A DNA stretch of 41,804 nucleotides. It comes from Candidatus Coprousia avicola (GTDB lineage: Bacteria; Actinomycetota; Coriobacteriia; Coriobacteriales; Coriobacteriaceae). Below, piece by piece: positions 36,996 to 41,804 of the stretch. The stretch spans positions 1 to 41,804 of the forward strand of contig DVMF01000047.1 in assembly GCA_018715125.1 (NCBI GenBank). The letters run 5' to 3'. Below the pieces are notes generated by a model. It ran no database searches. It had not been told where the DNA came from and saw nothing but the letters and a program-made list of their open reading frames with translations. A program made the position numbers and the translations under genes. The stretch's first letter is position 1. Every line of letters starts with the position of its first letter.

Positions 36996-37709
36996 TTACG
37001 ACGAGTGCCCCGCACAGATCACGTCCATGCGCTCAAAGGCCGCGTTCATACGAGACAGGCGCCCGCAATCGCAACCGAGCCGGTCAAGCTCGGCGATATC
37101 GAGCAGGTCTTTCTCTCGGCCGCTCGCCTGCTTTGCAGCGCGACAGGCCTCAAGCGTTGCCATGCCCGTCATCAAACCGCCGGAGCATGCGCGCCGCTCG
37201 ATGAAATCCTCCTCGGCAACATCGTCCACATGCGCCTCGAACAATGCGTCGAACCCCTCGAGCGCGGCAAACGCGGCGCTCCGCTGGCAGAGCGCACCGC
37301 CCGTAAGAGAAAACGGGCAGAAGCTCACGGGCACCCCGTCGATAACCGCACAGAGACCGTAGTCGACGCGGTCGCCGTTGCACATCAGGTCGAGCGAGTC
37401 GAACACCTCGACGCGGTCTCCCCGCCCGGCAAACCAGGCGCGCACCGCGGGCATATCCTCCGCCCGCACCGAGAAATCGACATCCCCGTGAAGTCGCCCG
37501 GAGTCTCGCCCGGATACCACCCAGGGAACAAGGCCGCCCATCAAAAACACGCTGCCGGCAAGCGATGGCTCGCCCAAGATCCGCAGCGCCACGGCTTTTG
37601 CCTGGCAACAGGTAACGCTGCGCGGCGCATCAGCACCGAGGTGGCTCGAAGTATCGTTGTCCATGGGACCACTGGCGCCATGTAGGCGCGTCACGTCATG
37701 CTGCTGCAC
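36996..37709 (-). CDS. Nucleotidyltransferase-like protein
   Basis: 237 residues if started at GTG 37709, which has GAGAGG about seven bases upstream; ATG 37664 (MDNDTSSHLG) is the alternative but lacks a ribosome site. Motif FLMGGLVPWVVSGR followed by HGDVDFSV is the G-G plus h-D-h-D signature of the polymerase-beta-like nucleotidyltransferase fold, and the C-terminal GREKDLLDIAELDRL is the KDxxDIxxL segment common in that group, which includes aminoglycoside nucleotidyltransferases and AbiEii-type toxins. No antitoxin partner is adjacent on this strand. Function is open. Confidence 0.65.
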   Translation of the reverse strand: MQQHDVTRLHGASGPMDNDTSSHLGADAPRSVTCCQAKAVALRILGEPSLAGSVFLMGGLVPWVVSGRDSGRLHGDVDFSVRAEDMPAVRAWFAGRGDRVEVFDSLDLMCNGDRVDYGLCAVIDGVPVSFCPFSLTGGALCQRSAAFAALEGFDALFEAHVDDVAEEDFIERRACSGGLMTGMATLEACRAAKQASGREKDLLDIAELDRLGCDCGRLSRMNAAFERMDVICAGHSS

Positions 37710-38040
37710 GATGCATCCTCTCTCCGATAAAGGCGCGCGAAACCAGGGGCCCTTGCCCCGCCATGCAGCCTTTTGCGTACAAGCTCGAACCGGATTTAGA
37801 GGATGGTCGTCACAGGTGCCTCCCAACGCAGGGGAACAGTAGCCCCATGCTAACACGAAAACGACGGGACGAAGTCCCCTATAGAGCAGCCGCGCTACTC
37901 GCCAGTGGCAACTCGACGTCGACGCCCGCGTTCTTTCGCGTTCGCATATGCTCTCAAGAACACGCTCTTGATTTATGCGTTCGCATAAATCACACTTACA
38001 TATGCCTGCTCTTTTGCGTTCGCATAAACTGGAGGGATAT
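37710..38040. other. 331-base divergent region between the nucleotidyltransferase and hip genes
   Basis: It contains the three hipB1 operators (37933-38028) and a small GGGAC-GAA-GTCCC hairpin near 37868-37880. Base composition becomes AT-richer from about 37930. No further coding sequence is supported. Confidence 0.5.
37933..38028 (+). promoter_or_regulatory. Three operators of hipB1 at exact 39-bp spacing
   Basis: The element TTTATGCG-TT-CGCATAAA is perfect at 37972-37989; it recurs at 38011-38028 (16 of 18) and 37933-37950 (13 of 18), with the core GCGTTCGCATA identical in all. The cores start at 37938, 37977 and 38016, i.e. 39 bp apart. The last copy ends 12 bases before the hipB1 ATG, just ahead of GGAGG. 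The pattern suits cooperative autorepression by a dimeric HipB. Confidence 0.85.
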
Positions 38041-38256
38041 ATGCCGGCAATTCTCACCTCTCGCGAGCTTGGAAACATCATGAGGACCGAACGGAAACGC
38101 CAAGGGCTGACGCAAGCGGAGCTCGCCGGACTCTGCGGCGTCGGCATCACCTTCCTCTCCCAGCTTGAGAACGGCAAGGAGACCGCCGAGTTAGGAAAAA
38201 CGCTAACGGTGCTCACGACACTTGGACTAGACGTTTTCATAGAAAGGAGGGGCTAA
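38041..38256 (+). CDS. hipB: HipB-type antitoxin/repressor 1
   Basis: 71 residues from ATG 38041, with GGAGG preceding. It is the compact HipB/Y4mF helix-turn-helix: IMRTERKRQGLTQAELAGLC, GVGITFLSQLENGKETAELG, and a C-terminal strand LGLDVFIERRG used for dimerisation in HipB. HipB binds HipA, neutralises it and represses the operon. The stop overlaps (TAATG) the start of a short HipA N-terminal fragment. It is followed only by that fragment and then a second hipB, so its own kinase partner seems lost or replaced. Confidence 0.88.
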   Translation: MPAILTSRELGNIMRTERKRQGLTQAELAGLCGVGITFLSQLENGKETAELGKTLTVLTTLGLDVFIERRG

Positions 38257-38354
38257 TGGGAGACGTTCTCAACGTTTCTTTGCTCTCCTATCGTGAACCG
38301 CATGTCGTGGGAACCATACGCATTCATTCCACACATAATCTTACGTATATGTAA
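38256..38354 (+). pseudogene. HipA N-terminal fragment (32 codons), remnant or mini-protein
   Basis: The ATG overlapping the hipB1 stop, with AAAGGAGG seven bases upstream, opens a 32-codon frame: MGDVLNVSLLSYREPHVVGT, then IRIHSTHNLTYM and TAA. The VVGTIRIHSTHNLTY part matches the HipA N-terminal pattern h-V-G-x-h-x(6-8)-h-x-F/Y and aligns with LVGSLVFSQGELRFTY of the intact HipA 430 bases downstream. The coupled start is exactly where hipA should begin after hipB. It is either the stub of a hipA replaced by the hipB2-hipA module, or a very short HipS-like regulatory peptide. The third, degenerate hipB2 operator overlaps its end. Confidence 0.65.
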
Positions 38355-38435
38355 TCTTTTGGCAGAGCAGCACATTTTCTTACCTATAGGTAAGAATCAC
38401 ATCCCAACTATACTATTCTTACCTATAGGTAAGAA
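38338..38435 (+). promoter_or_regulatory. Three operators of hipB2 at exact 39-bp spacing
   Basis: The perfect 20-bp palindrome TTCTTACCTATAGGTAAGAA occurs at 38377-38396 and 38416-38435. A degenerate copy (14 of 20) lies at 38338-38357, again exactly 39 bp upstream. A TATACT -10 hexamer at 38409-38414 sits between the two perfect copies. The last copy ends 13 bases before the hipB2 ATG, the same geometry as at hipB1 but with an unrelated sequence. Confidence 0.88.
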
Positions 38436-38448
38436 TAGGAGGATTGCC

Positions 38449-38694
38449 ATGGCACGATGCGCACCCATGCAAAGGGCGCCGATTTTTCAAGCAAGCGATC
38501 TTGGCGACCTACTTAGAGCGCGACGAAAATACCTCGGATACACGCAGGAGCAAGTCGCCGCATTCATGGGCTGCAGCCCTCGCCTTATAGGAGAAATAGA
38601 ACACGGCCGTGGTACTGTCGGTATTCAAAAGATCATCGACCTTGCTAACGGCCTCGGTGTCGATATCTTTGCGATACCAAGGGGACAGCGATGA
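38449..38694 (+). CDS. hipB: HipB-type antitoxin/repressor 2
   Basis: 81 residues from ATG 38449, with AGGAGG six bases upstream. After a 17-residue lead, LGDLLRARRKYLGYTQEQVA, then FMGCSPRLIGEIEHGRGTVG and ANGLGVDIFAIPRGQR give the HipB fold; the recognition helix differs fully from that of hipB1, in keeping with its different operator. Its TGA overlaps the hipA ATG by four bases, so this is the direct antitoxin of the kinase encoded downstream. Confidence 0.87.
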   Translation: MARCAPMQRAPIFQASDLGDLLRARRKYLGYTQEQVAAFMGCSPRLIGEIEHGRGTVGIQKIIDLANGLGVDIFAIPRGQR

Positions 38695-39968
38695 ACGTAC
38701 TTTATATCTTTCGAGAATGGGAAAGCGCATACCAGCTCGTCGGTTCGCTTGTGTTTTCGCAAGGTGAGCTTCGGTTCACATATGCGGATAGCTATCTCTC
38801 CTCAGCAGCCGCACGCCCTATTTCCCTCTCCTTACCCCTACAGGATGCGACGTTCTTTTCGAACGAGGCGGCACCCTTCTTTTCGGGCCTTGCGCCCGAA
38901 GGCGATATGAAGCGACTTCTCGCCGAATCGATTCATTCAAGCTCATTTGCCGCCATGCTCAGGCGCCTCAACAACGAATCAATTGGTGGTCTGATTTTCA
39001 ATACGGAACCAGAGGTCGAAGGTGAGCACGCTTCTTACCGGCCCCTCGAAGAACTTGATTTGATTCGCTTGCGCGACGAGCCTCGTACAGCGGCGTTTGA
39101 AATGAGCATGAGCTCTCGCCTGTCACTTTCTGGCGCTCAGAGCAAGGCGGGGCTCTATTGTGCCGAGAGCACGACGGGCCGAACCTGGTATCTTCCCGAC
39201 TCGACTGCCCCCTCCACGCATATTGTGAAAACGCCCCAAAAAGTCTTTCCCGATCAAACGCTTAATGAGGCGCTATGCCTCGAAACAGCAAGGAGATGCG
39301 GTTTTGACACGGCAGATTGGGAGCTTTTGAATCTGGATGGAGGAGAGCCGCTGCTTGCCGTCCGTCGCTTTGACCGAACGTTCCCCGATGATCCGGATAA
39401 GCACATCAGCGGCCTGCCCGCCCCTAGACGGTTGCACCAAGAAGACTTCTGCCAAGCATCGCTTCTCATGCCCGAAATGAAATATGAGCCAACCGGCGGT
39501 AATTACGCAAGTCGTTGCGGGACGATACTTTCCCGTGCTTCGAGCAATCCGTTTGGCGATCGCGCGTTCTTCTTGCAAGCTCTGTATTTCGACTACCTTA
39601 TTGGAAACTGCGACAACCATCTCAAGAATCATGCCATGCTCTGGGACGAGACCTGGAGAACTTGCGAGCTGGCACCGCTGTACGACATCACGTGCACGAC
39701 CATCTATCCGAGCATCGAGGCCGAAATGGGCGTCTCGCTTTGCCCGAGCCGCAAGATCTTCGACGTCACCCCTCATGACATTGTGAGAACCTCACAAGCT
39801 CTAGGTGTTCCTCAAAAACTGGGCGAAAACCTGTATAAAGAGCTCCACGCAGACTTTCCCAAGGCCCTTGACGCGGCTGCGAACCATCTCGCTCAGCTTG
39901 GTTATAACCGTACCGAGTACCTCGTCGAACATATAATAAAAGAGTTCTCCGGCAAAGTGCAGCTATAA
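38691..39968 (+). CDS. hipA: HipA-type serine/threonine kinase toxin
   Basis: 425 residues, start overlapping the hipB2 stop. HipA toxins phosphorylate aminoacyl-tRNA synthetases (GltX in E. coli) and cause growth arrest. The N-terminal subdomain (LVGSLVFSQGELRFTY), the Gly/Ser loop SLSGAQSKAGLY (145-156, including a Ser at the autophosphorylation position), THIVKTP (176-182), VRRFDRT (224-230), catalytic loop NCDNHLKNHAML with Asp308, and APLYDIT with Asp332 are all intact. Near-complete motif agreement suggests an active kinase. GC is clearly lower than in the flanking genes, a sign of transfer. Confidence 0.93.
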   Translation: MNVLYIFREWESAYQLVGSLVFSQGELRFTYADSYLSSAAARPISLSLPLQDATFFSNEAAPFFSGLAPEGDMKRLLAESIHSSSFAAMLRRLNNESIGGLIFNTEPEVEGEHASYRPLEELDLIRLRDEPRTAAFEMSMSSRLSLSGAQSKAGLYCAESTTGRTWYLPDSTAPSTHIVKTPQKVFPDQTLNEALCLETARRCGFDTADWELLNLDGGEPLLAVRRFDRTFPDDPDKHISGLPAPRRLHQEDFCQASLLMPEMKYEPTGGNYASRCGTILSRASSNPFGDRAFFLQALYFDYLIGNCDNHLKNHAMLWDETWRTCELAPLYDITCTTIYPSIEAEMGVSLCPSRKIFDVTPHDIVRTSQALGVPQKLGENLYKELHADFPKALDAAANHLAQLGYNRTEYLVEHIIKEFSGKVQL

Positions 39969-39993
39969 GACATGCCAGCGCTTCATATGCGCA

Positions 39994-40034
39994 GCCGGGG
40001 CATACTGTGTCGAGCATATCCCCGGCCGCGTTTA
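39994..40034 (+). terminator. Possible terminator of the hip operon
   Basis: The stem GCCGGGG (39994-40000) / CCCCGGC (40020-40026) with a 19-base loop (itself bounded by CATA repeats) is followed after GCG by TTTAAAT. The loop is long and the T-run weak. Confidence 0.4.
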
Positions 40035-40040
40035 AATGCG

Positions 40041-40262
40041 CTACTCCCTCTCGAGCAGCTGGCCCATCGCGATGGGATCGTGAGCATCGAGTGGCGTGAC
40101 CACCGGTTTGCCGTCGGCATCGACCAGGACGGTGATGCCGCTGCCGCCCGTCATGTTGGATGACATGAGCAGGTAGTTAACCCCGGTCTCGGTATCGACG
40201 ATGATCTTGCGGACGTTGGTCACGCCCTGGGAGTAGACCTCGACAAAACGCTCGTGTGCCAT
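40041..40262 (-). CDS. DUF6440 family small protein
   Basis: 73 residues from ATG 40262, with AAAGGA upstream. The pattern RFVEVYSQGVTNVRKIIVDT then GVNYLL and ITVLVDADGKPVV is the whole DUF6440 domain, a small beta-rich cytoplasmic protein found widely in gut Firmicutes and Actinobacteria. No function is known. A 14-bp palindrome lies 41 bases upstream of its start. Confidence 0.85.
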   Translation of the reverse strand: MAHERFVEVYSQGVTNVRKIIVDTETGVNYLLMSSNMTGGSGITVLVDADGKPVVTPLDAHDPIAMGQLLERE

Positions 40263-40302
40263 AGCGGTTCCTTTCTGTAAAACGGTAGATGACAGCTATC
40301 GT

Positions 40303-40316
40303 TCAAACATGTTTGA
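40303..40316 (-). promoter_or_regulatory. 14-bp perfect palindrome upstream of the DUF6440 gene
   Basis: TCAAACATGTTTGA is self-complementary and lies in an AT-rich stretch 41 bases before the start codon at 40262, in promoter position. The regulator is unknown, possibly the adjacent XRE protein. Confidence 0.45.
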
Positions 40317-40385
40317 TTGATACCAATTTGCATTCTGAAAACCTCGGCAGTACCAAGACGGCTGTGCGTACGCGCCAGCTGCGGA

Positions 40386-40985
40386 CTAGGCTCCGAGCAG
40401 CCTCGAGATGATGCTCGCCGCTCCCCACCCGCAGCACAGCCCTATGAGCACGGCGACGATGGTCTGCACGACGCGCCGCGCGACCCAGTGCTCACCGGCG
40501 CGCTGGTTGTAGCGGCAGCCGACCTCGGGGTCCTCACCCGCGAGGTACGCCTCCACCGCCTGATAGGCGAACAGCTGGTTATCGTGACGCATCTTGTCAA
40601 CGAGAAACGCCGCGACCATGGCGGGAGTGAGCAGCGCCGCCGCGGGCACTGCAATATGCACCAGGTCAAGATCCAGCACGATGCCCGCGACCACCCACGC
40701 CACGCAGGCGAGCCCGAATGTCGCCATGACGACGCCGAGCCGGCTCATCCTCTTCGCCCCGACCTCGAGCGCCTCGCGTCTATCATGAGCGTCATCCCTG
40801 ACCAGCGCATCGATGCTGACGCCGAAGAGCTCGCTCAGCAGAAGCAGGCTCTGCACATCGGGGTACGTGCGATCGGCCTCCCAGTTGCCGATGGTGTTCC
40901 GCGTCACGAAGACCGCCTTTGCGAGCTCGCCCTGGGACATTCCCAAGCGTTCGCGATGCTCTCTGATGCGCCGCGCGAGTTCCAC
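40386..40985 (-). CDS. XRE-family regulator with two-to-three-helix membrane tail
   Basis: 199 residues from GTG 40985, with GGGAGGGAG upstream. XRE domain at 4-60 (MSQGELAKAVFVTRNTIGNW), a charged linker, helices at about 84-105, 112-132 and 172-194. The middle loop (NQLFAYQAVEAYLAGEDPEVG) is cytoplasmic by charge. Similar to, but shorter than, the membrane-tethered XRE protein at 29369. Target unknown; the DUF6440 gene is 123 bases downstream. Confidence 0.85.
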   Translation of the reverse strand: MELARRIREHRERLGMSQGELAKAVFVTRNTIGNWEADRTYPDVQSLLLLSELFGVSIDALVRDDAHDRREALEVGAKRMSRLGVVMATFGLACVAWVVAGIVLDLDLVHIAVPAAALLTPAMVAAFLVDKMRHDNQLFAYQAVEAYLAGEDPEVGCRYNQRAGEHWVARRVVQTIVAVLIGLCCGWGAASIISRLLGA

Positions 40986-41063
40986 GCGGCTCCCTCCCGT
41001 TCAGGTGGTGTCGGACCGCGCCTACGGTACCATCTTCTTGCTTGGGCAGAAGCGAGGCAGAGT

Positions 41064-41096
41064 AAAAACGCCCTGCCCAATGTTTTGGGCAGGGCG
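41064..41096 (-). terminator. Rho-independent terminator of the DUF5714 gene
   Basis: A perfect 12-bp stem CGCCCTGCCCAA (41069-41080) / TTGGGCAGGGCG (41085-41096) with a four-base loop. On the minus strand it is followed by TTTTT. Confidence 0.93.
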
Positions 41097-41172
41097 CTGA
41101 GCTGGTGCGTTGTACCTTTGATGCCATGCTCCCCGTCTTGGTGCCGCGTACGGCAGCAAGACGCGCGACGGC

Positions 41173-41736
41173 TCAGGCGCCCGGATGATACGGGCAGGCT
41201 CCCTGCAGACAGGCGCTGTTCGCCTCGAAGACTGAACACGAGGGAATCGCATCGCCCTCAGCTAGATGCGTCCCCAACTCCCGGTTGAACCATAGCACCG
41301 CCGCACGGACCGCGATGCGCGCATCGCGCTTGCAGCACCGCGGCGCACCGGCGCGCGCAATCCGCTGCAAGATGTCCGCGACCATGAGCTGGCCCTCGCT
41401 CCACCCCTCACGCCTCAGCGGCGCGCTGCCCGCCATGATGGCGAACGCCATACCGCAGGACGCCGCCGCGCCGCACACGCCCCACTGGGCGCACGCCGCA
41501 CCCGGCACGCAGGTGGCGCGGCGCTCAAGCTCGGCAAGGTCGTTCGCGAGGGAATCCCGCGCAGCCTCTCCGTCTTTGCCCGCACAAGAGCACGTGAGCA
41601 GCGCCGCGCCCACCAGCACGTGGTGCACCGGACCGAAAGCCGGGCACTCGTCGCTACCCATCAGCACCTCTAGCAACGCGGCGGGGTCGTTTCCCTCCCA
41701 TGCGAGGCATGCGCTCTCGATCCACGCAGCTTCCAT
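41173..41736 (-). CDS. DUF5714 family cysteine-rich protein
   Basis: 187 residues from ATG 41736, with AAAGGG five bases upstream; the frame runs to 41793 but that part is promoter-like. The family pattern is complete: PVHHVLVGAALL, CVPGAACAQWGVCGAAASCG, GSAPLRREGWSEGQLM, AGAPRCCKRDARIAVRAAV and a closing SACLQGACPYHP. The many conserved Cys and the RCCKRD motif suggest metal or cluster binding. In other anaerobes the family is linked to radical-SAM or tungsten/molybdenum genes; here it is alone. Function unproven. Confidence 0.85.
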   Translation of the reverse strand: MEAAWIESACLAWEGNDPAALLEVLMGSDECPAFGPVHHVLVGAALLTCSCAGKDGEAARDSLANDLAELERRATCVPGAACAQWGVCGAAASCGMAFAIMAGSAPLRREGWSEGQLMVADILQRIARAGAPRCCKRDARIAVRAAVLWFNRELGTHLAEGDAIPSCSVFEANSACLQGACPYHPGA

Positions 41737-41744
41737 CGGTACCC

Positions 41745-41795
41745 TTTCTCTCGTTCCAAGGCTTGGGCTATAGTATATATCGATATTCGTCAATC
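41745..41795 (-). promoter_or_regulatory. Probable promoter of the DUF5714 gene
   Basis: On the minus strand TTGACG near the right edge is followed after 15 bases by TATAGC, with the palindrome ATATCGATAT in the spacer. The AT-rich block contrasts with the coding DNA. Confidence 0.45.
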
Positions 41796-41804
41796 TACCA
41801 TATT

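Follow-up and report, generated by a model that had tools for sequence, protein, structure and literature searches.

A hipB gene without its toxin directly precedes a complete hipBA pair: very probably canonical hipBA modules from two families, placed head to tail

The hip genes described here lie in a block with a G+C content of 52.9%, against 63-64% in its flanks and 65.9% in the whole window, by which we mean the entire stretch of 41,804 nucleotides that was analysed. All on the + strand, the block contains an operator triplet, hipB1, a 32-codon open reading frame, a second operator triplet, hipB2, and hipA2. The features are given below in window coordinates; the operators (O1 upstream of hipB1, O2 upstream of hipB2) and the gene functions are predicted.

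37823-40038, no strand assigned: low-G+C block of 2.2 kb, present or absent as a unit, distinct in composition and bounded by the junction in a close relative that lacks it (G006)
37935-37948, + strand: HipB1-type operator 1, TTCGCGTTCGCATA; 39-nt repeat, with like sites 5' of hipB1 homologues in relatives
37974-37987, + strand: HipB1-type operator 2, TATGCGTTCGCATA, perfect consensus; 39-nt repeat
38013-38026, + strand: HipB1-type operator 3, TTTGCGTTCGCATA; 39-nt repeat
38041-38256, + strand: hipB1, orphan HTH antitoxin and autorepressor, 71 aa (TIGR03070 couple_hipB, 6.7e-21)
38256-38354, + strand: hipA1 5' stub, 32 codons, like the HipA1 N-terminus
38341-38354, + strand: HipB2-type operator 1, degenerate, TTACGTATATGTAA; two mismatches against the consensus, 39 nt to the next
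38380-38393, + strand: HipB2-type operator 2, TTACCTATAGGTAA; 39-nt repeat
38419-38432, + strand: HipB2-type operator 3, TTACCTATAGGTAA; 39-nt repeat
38449-38694, + strand: hipB2, cognate HTH antitoxin and autorepressor of HipA2, 81 aa (couple_hipB, HTH_31)
38691-39968, + strand: hipA2, intact HipA-family Ser/Thr kinase toxin, 425 aa (HipA_C, Couple_hipA)

The downstream genes have the organisation of a hipBA module. hipB2 lies directly upstream of hipA2 and overlaps it by ATGA. HipB2 matches the couple_hipB profile at 8.2e-15, below the model cutoff, and HTH_31 at 9.1e-12, above the cutoff, and is 82% and 67% identical to the HipBs of canonical hipB2A2 pairs in two relatives, G009 and G061. 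HipA2 is full length, with an N-domain (Couple_hipA, 8.4e-14) and a HipA_C kinase domain (1.1e-43), and residues 15-395 align with E. coli HipA (2wiu) at 3.6e-30. Its catalytic motifs (SLSGAQSK, GNCDNHLKN, and LAPLYD) are present, retaining the SxxGxQxK loop, the DxxxKN catalytic motif, and the YD metal-binding motif, which are invariant in our alignment A1. The nearest named relatives of HipA2 come from Coriobacteriaceae and Collinsella, and the palindromic operators upstream of the pair are common to HipB2-family relatives. On these features, hipB2A2 appears to be the sole complete toxin-antitoxin pair at the locus.

HipB1 matches the couple_hipB/Y4mF antitoxin model TIGR03070 above its curated cutoff and is 57-61% identical to five HipB1s of its family, four of which come from intact hipBA pairs. 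With HipB2 it shares only ~31-34% identity. The open reading frame that follows overlaps the hipB1 stop codon (TAATG), and its first ~24 codons are homologous to HipA1 N-termini (shuffle test, p<=0.001), with no match to N-termini of the HipA2 type; its last codons (LTYM-stop) are translated out of a hipB2 operator. Since this stub resembles HipA1 rather than HipA2 and ends in the hipB2 operator, hipA1 would have been lost, with hipB2A2 abutting its ~24 remaining codons. A tblastn search of window positions 37000-41804 found no remainder of hipA1, including downstream of hipA2. We rejected the possibility that hipB2A2 had inserted within a hipA1 that is otherwise complete, because hipA1 3' sequence is missing downstream of hipA2. 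A cognate full-length HipA for HipB1 is absent, as the sole HipA match in the source genome (G000, 96.6% complete) is HipA2. By these findings the antitoxin gene hipB1 is intact but has been left without its cognate toxin. One intact HipA and a HipA stub had been reported in the preliminary description, and both identifications held.

In both operator arrays successive copies are spaced by exactly 39 nt, and the two sets are unrelated in sequence. Within the window, TATGCGTTCGCATA with up to two mismatches gave five matches against 0.20 expected, four of them (three sites) at the hip locus, and TTACCTATAGGTAA with up to two mismatches gave three against 0.00 expected, so both predicted sets exceed chance. 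The degenerate HipB2-type site at 38341-38354 contains the stop codon of the stub and is identical in the sister species G002; this third, weaker hipB2 operator was absent from the preliminary description, which gives each hipB its own operator set. Between G000 and G002, none of 84 bases in the operator cores differs, against 14 of 145 in the intervening non-coding DNA (Fisher p=0.0026), a contrast that weakens to p=0.057 when the operator is defined as ~20 nt. Across G000, neither the strict HipB1 site pattern TWTGCGNNCGCATA nor O2-like sites were found outside the hip locus, so no wider HipB1 regulon is visible at that stringency. At this stringency, other genomic targets of HipB1 were rejected on the confinement of TWTGCGNNCGCATA to the locus. 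By sequence comparison, the recognition regions of the HipBs co-segregate with the operators, GVGITF-type regions occurring with TATGCGnnCGCATA and GCSPRL-type regions with TTACC-type sites. The earlier description of two different HipBs with separate operator sets is supported. The 39-nt periodicity, common to two unrelated HipB operator families and also seen in relatives, suggests a common geometry of HipB/HipBA packing on promoters, and it offers a handle on that packing. Pairs of TATGCGnnCGCATA palindromes exactly 39 nt apart were also observed in three other genomes, at L187 (G003:C10:14613 and 14652), L189 (G006:C22:62273 and 62312), and L190 (G007:C56:8023 and 8062). All three lie between flavin/pyridoxamine-oxidase-like and ammonium-transporter-like genes, with no hipB or hipA nearby, and would be either leftovers of hipBA operators or sites recognised by a different regulator.

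Homologues of HipB1 occur widely across the order, with matches at 1e-10 or better in 62 of 249 genomes. We examined 33 HipB1-family loci. Most are canonical hipBA pairs in which a full-length HipA1 starts at or near the HipB stop codon, five are orphans without HipA, and only those of G000 and G002 continue into hipB2A2; the hipB-hipB-hipA order, which it had been proposed to look for in relatives, thus recurs once. These loci mostly carry TATGCGnnCGCATA operators, often 39 nt apart. The HipB2 homologues of G009 and G061 belong to a plain canonical hipBA family with an operator spacing of 39-40 nt. Arrays upstream of HipB2-family genes are of the TTACCTATAGGTAA type in the window, G002, and G061, and of the variant TTACTTATATGTAA in G009. 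Both hipBA families are present in G061, as separate loci. We inspected 80 HipA relatives from GTDB genomes and saw no case of two neighbouring HipBs in front of HipA; one (L128) has a second HTH open reading frame ~1.4 kb further upstream, not adjacent. A literature search for tandem hipB did not find a second hipB directly before an intact hipBA.

The sister species G002 (same genus, ~96% DNA identity) has exactly this layout, down to the stub and its stop codon, with scattered substitutions. In G006 (contig C26), flanks 94-96% identical to ours surround an alternative site without the block, where the bases corresponding to window positions 37822 and 40039 are joined by 134 unrelated bp. 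Since the flanks meet there without the block, the whole composite is a single presence/absence unit. The low G+C content of the block favours its acquisition in this lineage, with loss in G006 as the alternative. The preliminary description had called the locus AT-richer than its flanks and probably acquired, and of this the composition stands while the acquisition is only favoured. A collapsed or chimeric contig could be suspected in a draft of 93 contigs, such as that of G000, yet G002 was assembled independently in ~30 contigs and shows the same structure with distributed SNPs; we therefore ruled out an assembly error, whose probability is negligible. An intact hipB1-hipA1 pair in related strains, together with an assembly deletion here, had been named as the outcome that would overturn the earlier interpretation. 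Intact pairs do exist in relatives; an assembly deletion does not account for the locus, the truncation being the same in G002. Beside the block, ~380 bp of a minus-strand open reading frame (window 37045-37430) are absent in G002, where this gene is therefore truncated.

Loss of hipA1 with retention of hipB1 was observed elsewhere in the family. Five other genomes carry an orphan HipB1 without any HipA. In four of them (G034, G044, G056, and G050) hipA1 has one common truncation after a few codons, and G050 has also lost the hipB1 stop codon, which suggests that some orphans decay; in the fifth (G028) hipA1 is lost entirely. Toxin loss with the antitoxin kept has therefore occurred at least three times in the family. 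Among the orphan hipB1s with the shared truncation, pairwise dN/dS values of 0.24-0.36 compare with 0.13 for two hipB1 genes from intact pairs, so that constraint on the orphans, as judged from these ratios, is relaxed without being neutral. Such repeated retention of the antitoxin would fit either a selected immunity against related toxins or gradual decay. In G005 (L188, C6:56404 and 56443), an operator pair is followed only by the last hipA1 codons (LDEFARS-stop) before an mrp-like gene; by its position this is evidently a deletion remnant, since G004 has an intact hipB1A1 upstream of the same following gene. We also observed, beside an intact hipB1, a gene of the HipA1 type interrupted by a single in-frame TAG (L075, G055:C9:130243-131457), which looks like toxin loss at an early stage. 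One family thus offers a natural series of hipBA fates, from the intact pair to the antitoxin-only orphan, the operator-only remnant, and the orphan fused to a second module, and this series makes it testable whether an orphan HipB is selected as immunity against related toxins or is debris.

Altogether, we consider it very probable that the locus consists of two canonical hipBA modules from different families, head to tail, of which the first has no toxin. The single compound hip system put forward in the preliminary description gives way here to a decayed and an intact module side by side. In the order of events that we infer, a hipB1-hipA1 module with three TATGCGnnCGCATA operators came at the start; hipB2-hipA2, with its own TTACCTATAGGTAA operators, would then have been placed directly after codon ~24 of hipA1, the rest of which was deleted, and the composite would now be present or absent as one ~2.2-kb block. 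HipB2 would bind O2, repress its own synthesis, and hold the HipA2 kinase inactive, as is established for hipBA. According to PMC8262856, hipBST is the one exception among the cases investigated; in all others HipB serves both as the antitoxin and as an autoregulator. The orphan HipB1 has most likely kept both its binding to O1 and the repression of its own promoter. No terminator-like site was found on the + strand between the two units, so read-through into hipB2A2 is possible and transcripts begun ahead of hipB1 may contribute to the expression of hipB2A2. A sigma-70 consensus scan found no promoter, this consensus being uninformative for this bacterial group.

How much of this the conservation in G002 supports depends on few substitutions. 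Within the block, conservation is highest in hipB1, which has 98.1% DNA identity to G002 and three synonymous and one non-synonymous codon changes, so that any statement on selection rests on four codon changes in two genomes (binomial p ~0.05). The stub has four non-synonymous and two synonymous changes, and these small numbers suggest that, unlike hipB1, it drifts without visible constraint. Conservation of hipB1 and of its operators, again in small numbers, suggests that HipB1 is still a functional DNA-binding protein, and we lean, with some reserve, towards its retention as a working repressor. The main competitor within the two-module reading, plausible though somewhat improbable to us, is that a dead hipBA left hipB1, the stub, and O1 behind as neutral debris, which there has been too little time to erase. 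It agrees with the free drift of the stub (four of six codon changes non-synonymous) and with the two operators and last hipA1 codons to which G005 is reduced where G004 has an intact pair; together with the stop codon lost from hipB1 in G050, that remnant indicates that decay of the HipB1 family is common in these relatives. Pure decay is harder to reconcile with the high conservation of hipB1, where three of four changes are synonymous, and with the unchanged O1 cores; moreover, orphan hipB1 frames stay open in three independent situations, with the dN/dS of 0.24-0.36 noted above for the orphan clade.

Joint control of HipA2 by both HipBs, through a distal HipB1-repressed promoter reading into hipB2A2 and possibly through binding of HipB1 to HipA2, would fit the lack of a forward terminator between the units, the good ribosome binding sites at the stub and at hipB2, and the conservation of hipB1 and both operator cores along with the arrangement in G002. 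We nevertheless find it unlikely. In relatives, each module stands by itself as an ordinary hipBA and so does not depend on the other; the identities between HipB1 and HipB2 (~31-34%) and between the HipA1 and HipA2 types (~33-36%) are low, so cross-binding is not expected; and the arrangement is confined to two very close species, so its conservation says little. A tripartite hipBST-like system, with the stub as a HipS-like HipA N-subdomain, is highly improbable. A HipA N-terminal fragment does sit between a hipB and the kinase gene, but at 32 aa it compares poorly with the ~100 aa of HipS/HipA N-subdomain 1, it is of the other HipA family and shows no visible constraint on its sequence, and the downstream kinase is complete and includes an N-terminal domain (Couple_hipA 8.4e-14). 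We rejected hipBST for the length of the stub, its HipA family, and the completeness of the kinase. As regards the two-module reading itself, with no cognate HipA1 in the cell HipB1 could neutralise incoming HipA1-type kinases. Anti-addiction is an established model that has rarely been shown (PMC7354431), and its use by HipB1 is doubtful in our judgement. No phage matches to HipB1 were found, nor close HipA1/HipB1 relatives on plasmids, viral contigs, or mobile elements, so the idea comes without a known mobile target. It is a long shot that HipB1 has been kept both as an immunity factor, neutralising HipA1-type kinases of related gut actinobacteria, and as a second repressor layer that ties hipB2A2 to HipB1 via read-through; if true, a two-antitoxin control circuit would have been built from a broken module.

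Compared with canonical hipBA (E. coli K-12 HipBA, PDB 2wiu; C. crescentus), hipB2A2 is alike in having an HTH gene that overlaps the gene of a full-length HipA kinase, upstream palindromic operators, and the HipA kinase motifs. It differs in its three operators at 39-nt spacing, with a sequence of their own, and in the second, toxin-less hipB that precedes it. The hipBST systems and H. influenzae HipB-HipAN-HipAC (PMC6581861, PMC9438503, PMC10627512) likewise have a HipA N-terminal fragment beside hipB, but there a HipS of ~100 aa is followed by a kinase without the N-subdomain, whereas here the fragment has 32 aa, comes from another HipA family, and accompanies a full-length kinase that has an N-domain itself. 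Orphan antitoxins, among them some associated with HipA, occur unpaired in Klebsiella genomes (PMC7192599). hipB1 is like them an intact antitoxin gene that has lost its cognate toxin gene, but it keeps an operator array and directly adjoins a second, intact hipBA; the locus is of moderate interest because the role of orphan HipB antitoxins can be tested on a case provided by nature. Ten Hip gene organisations, among them hipBA, hipEB, hipBST, and monocistronic yjjJ, are distinguished in PMC8262856, whose consulted sections do not mention a hipB-stub-hipB-hipA order. In its scheme, hipB2A2 and the ancestral hipB1A1 would both be hipBA. The hipB-stub-hipB-hipA arrangement is a lineage-specific composite of known parts and not a further basic Hip organisation.
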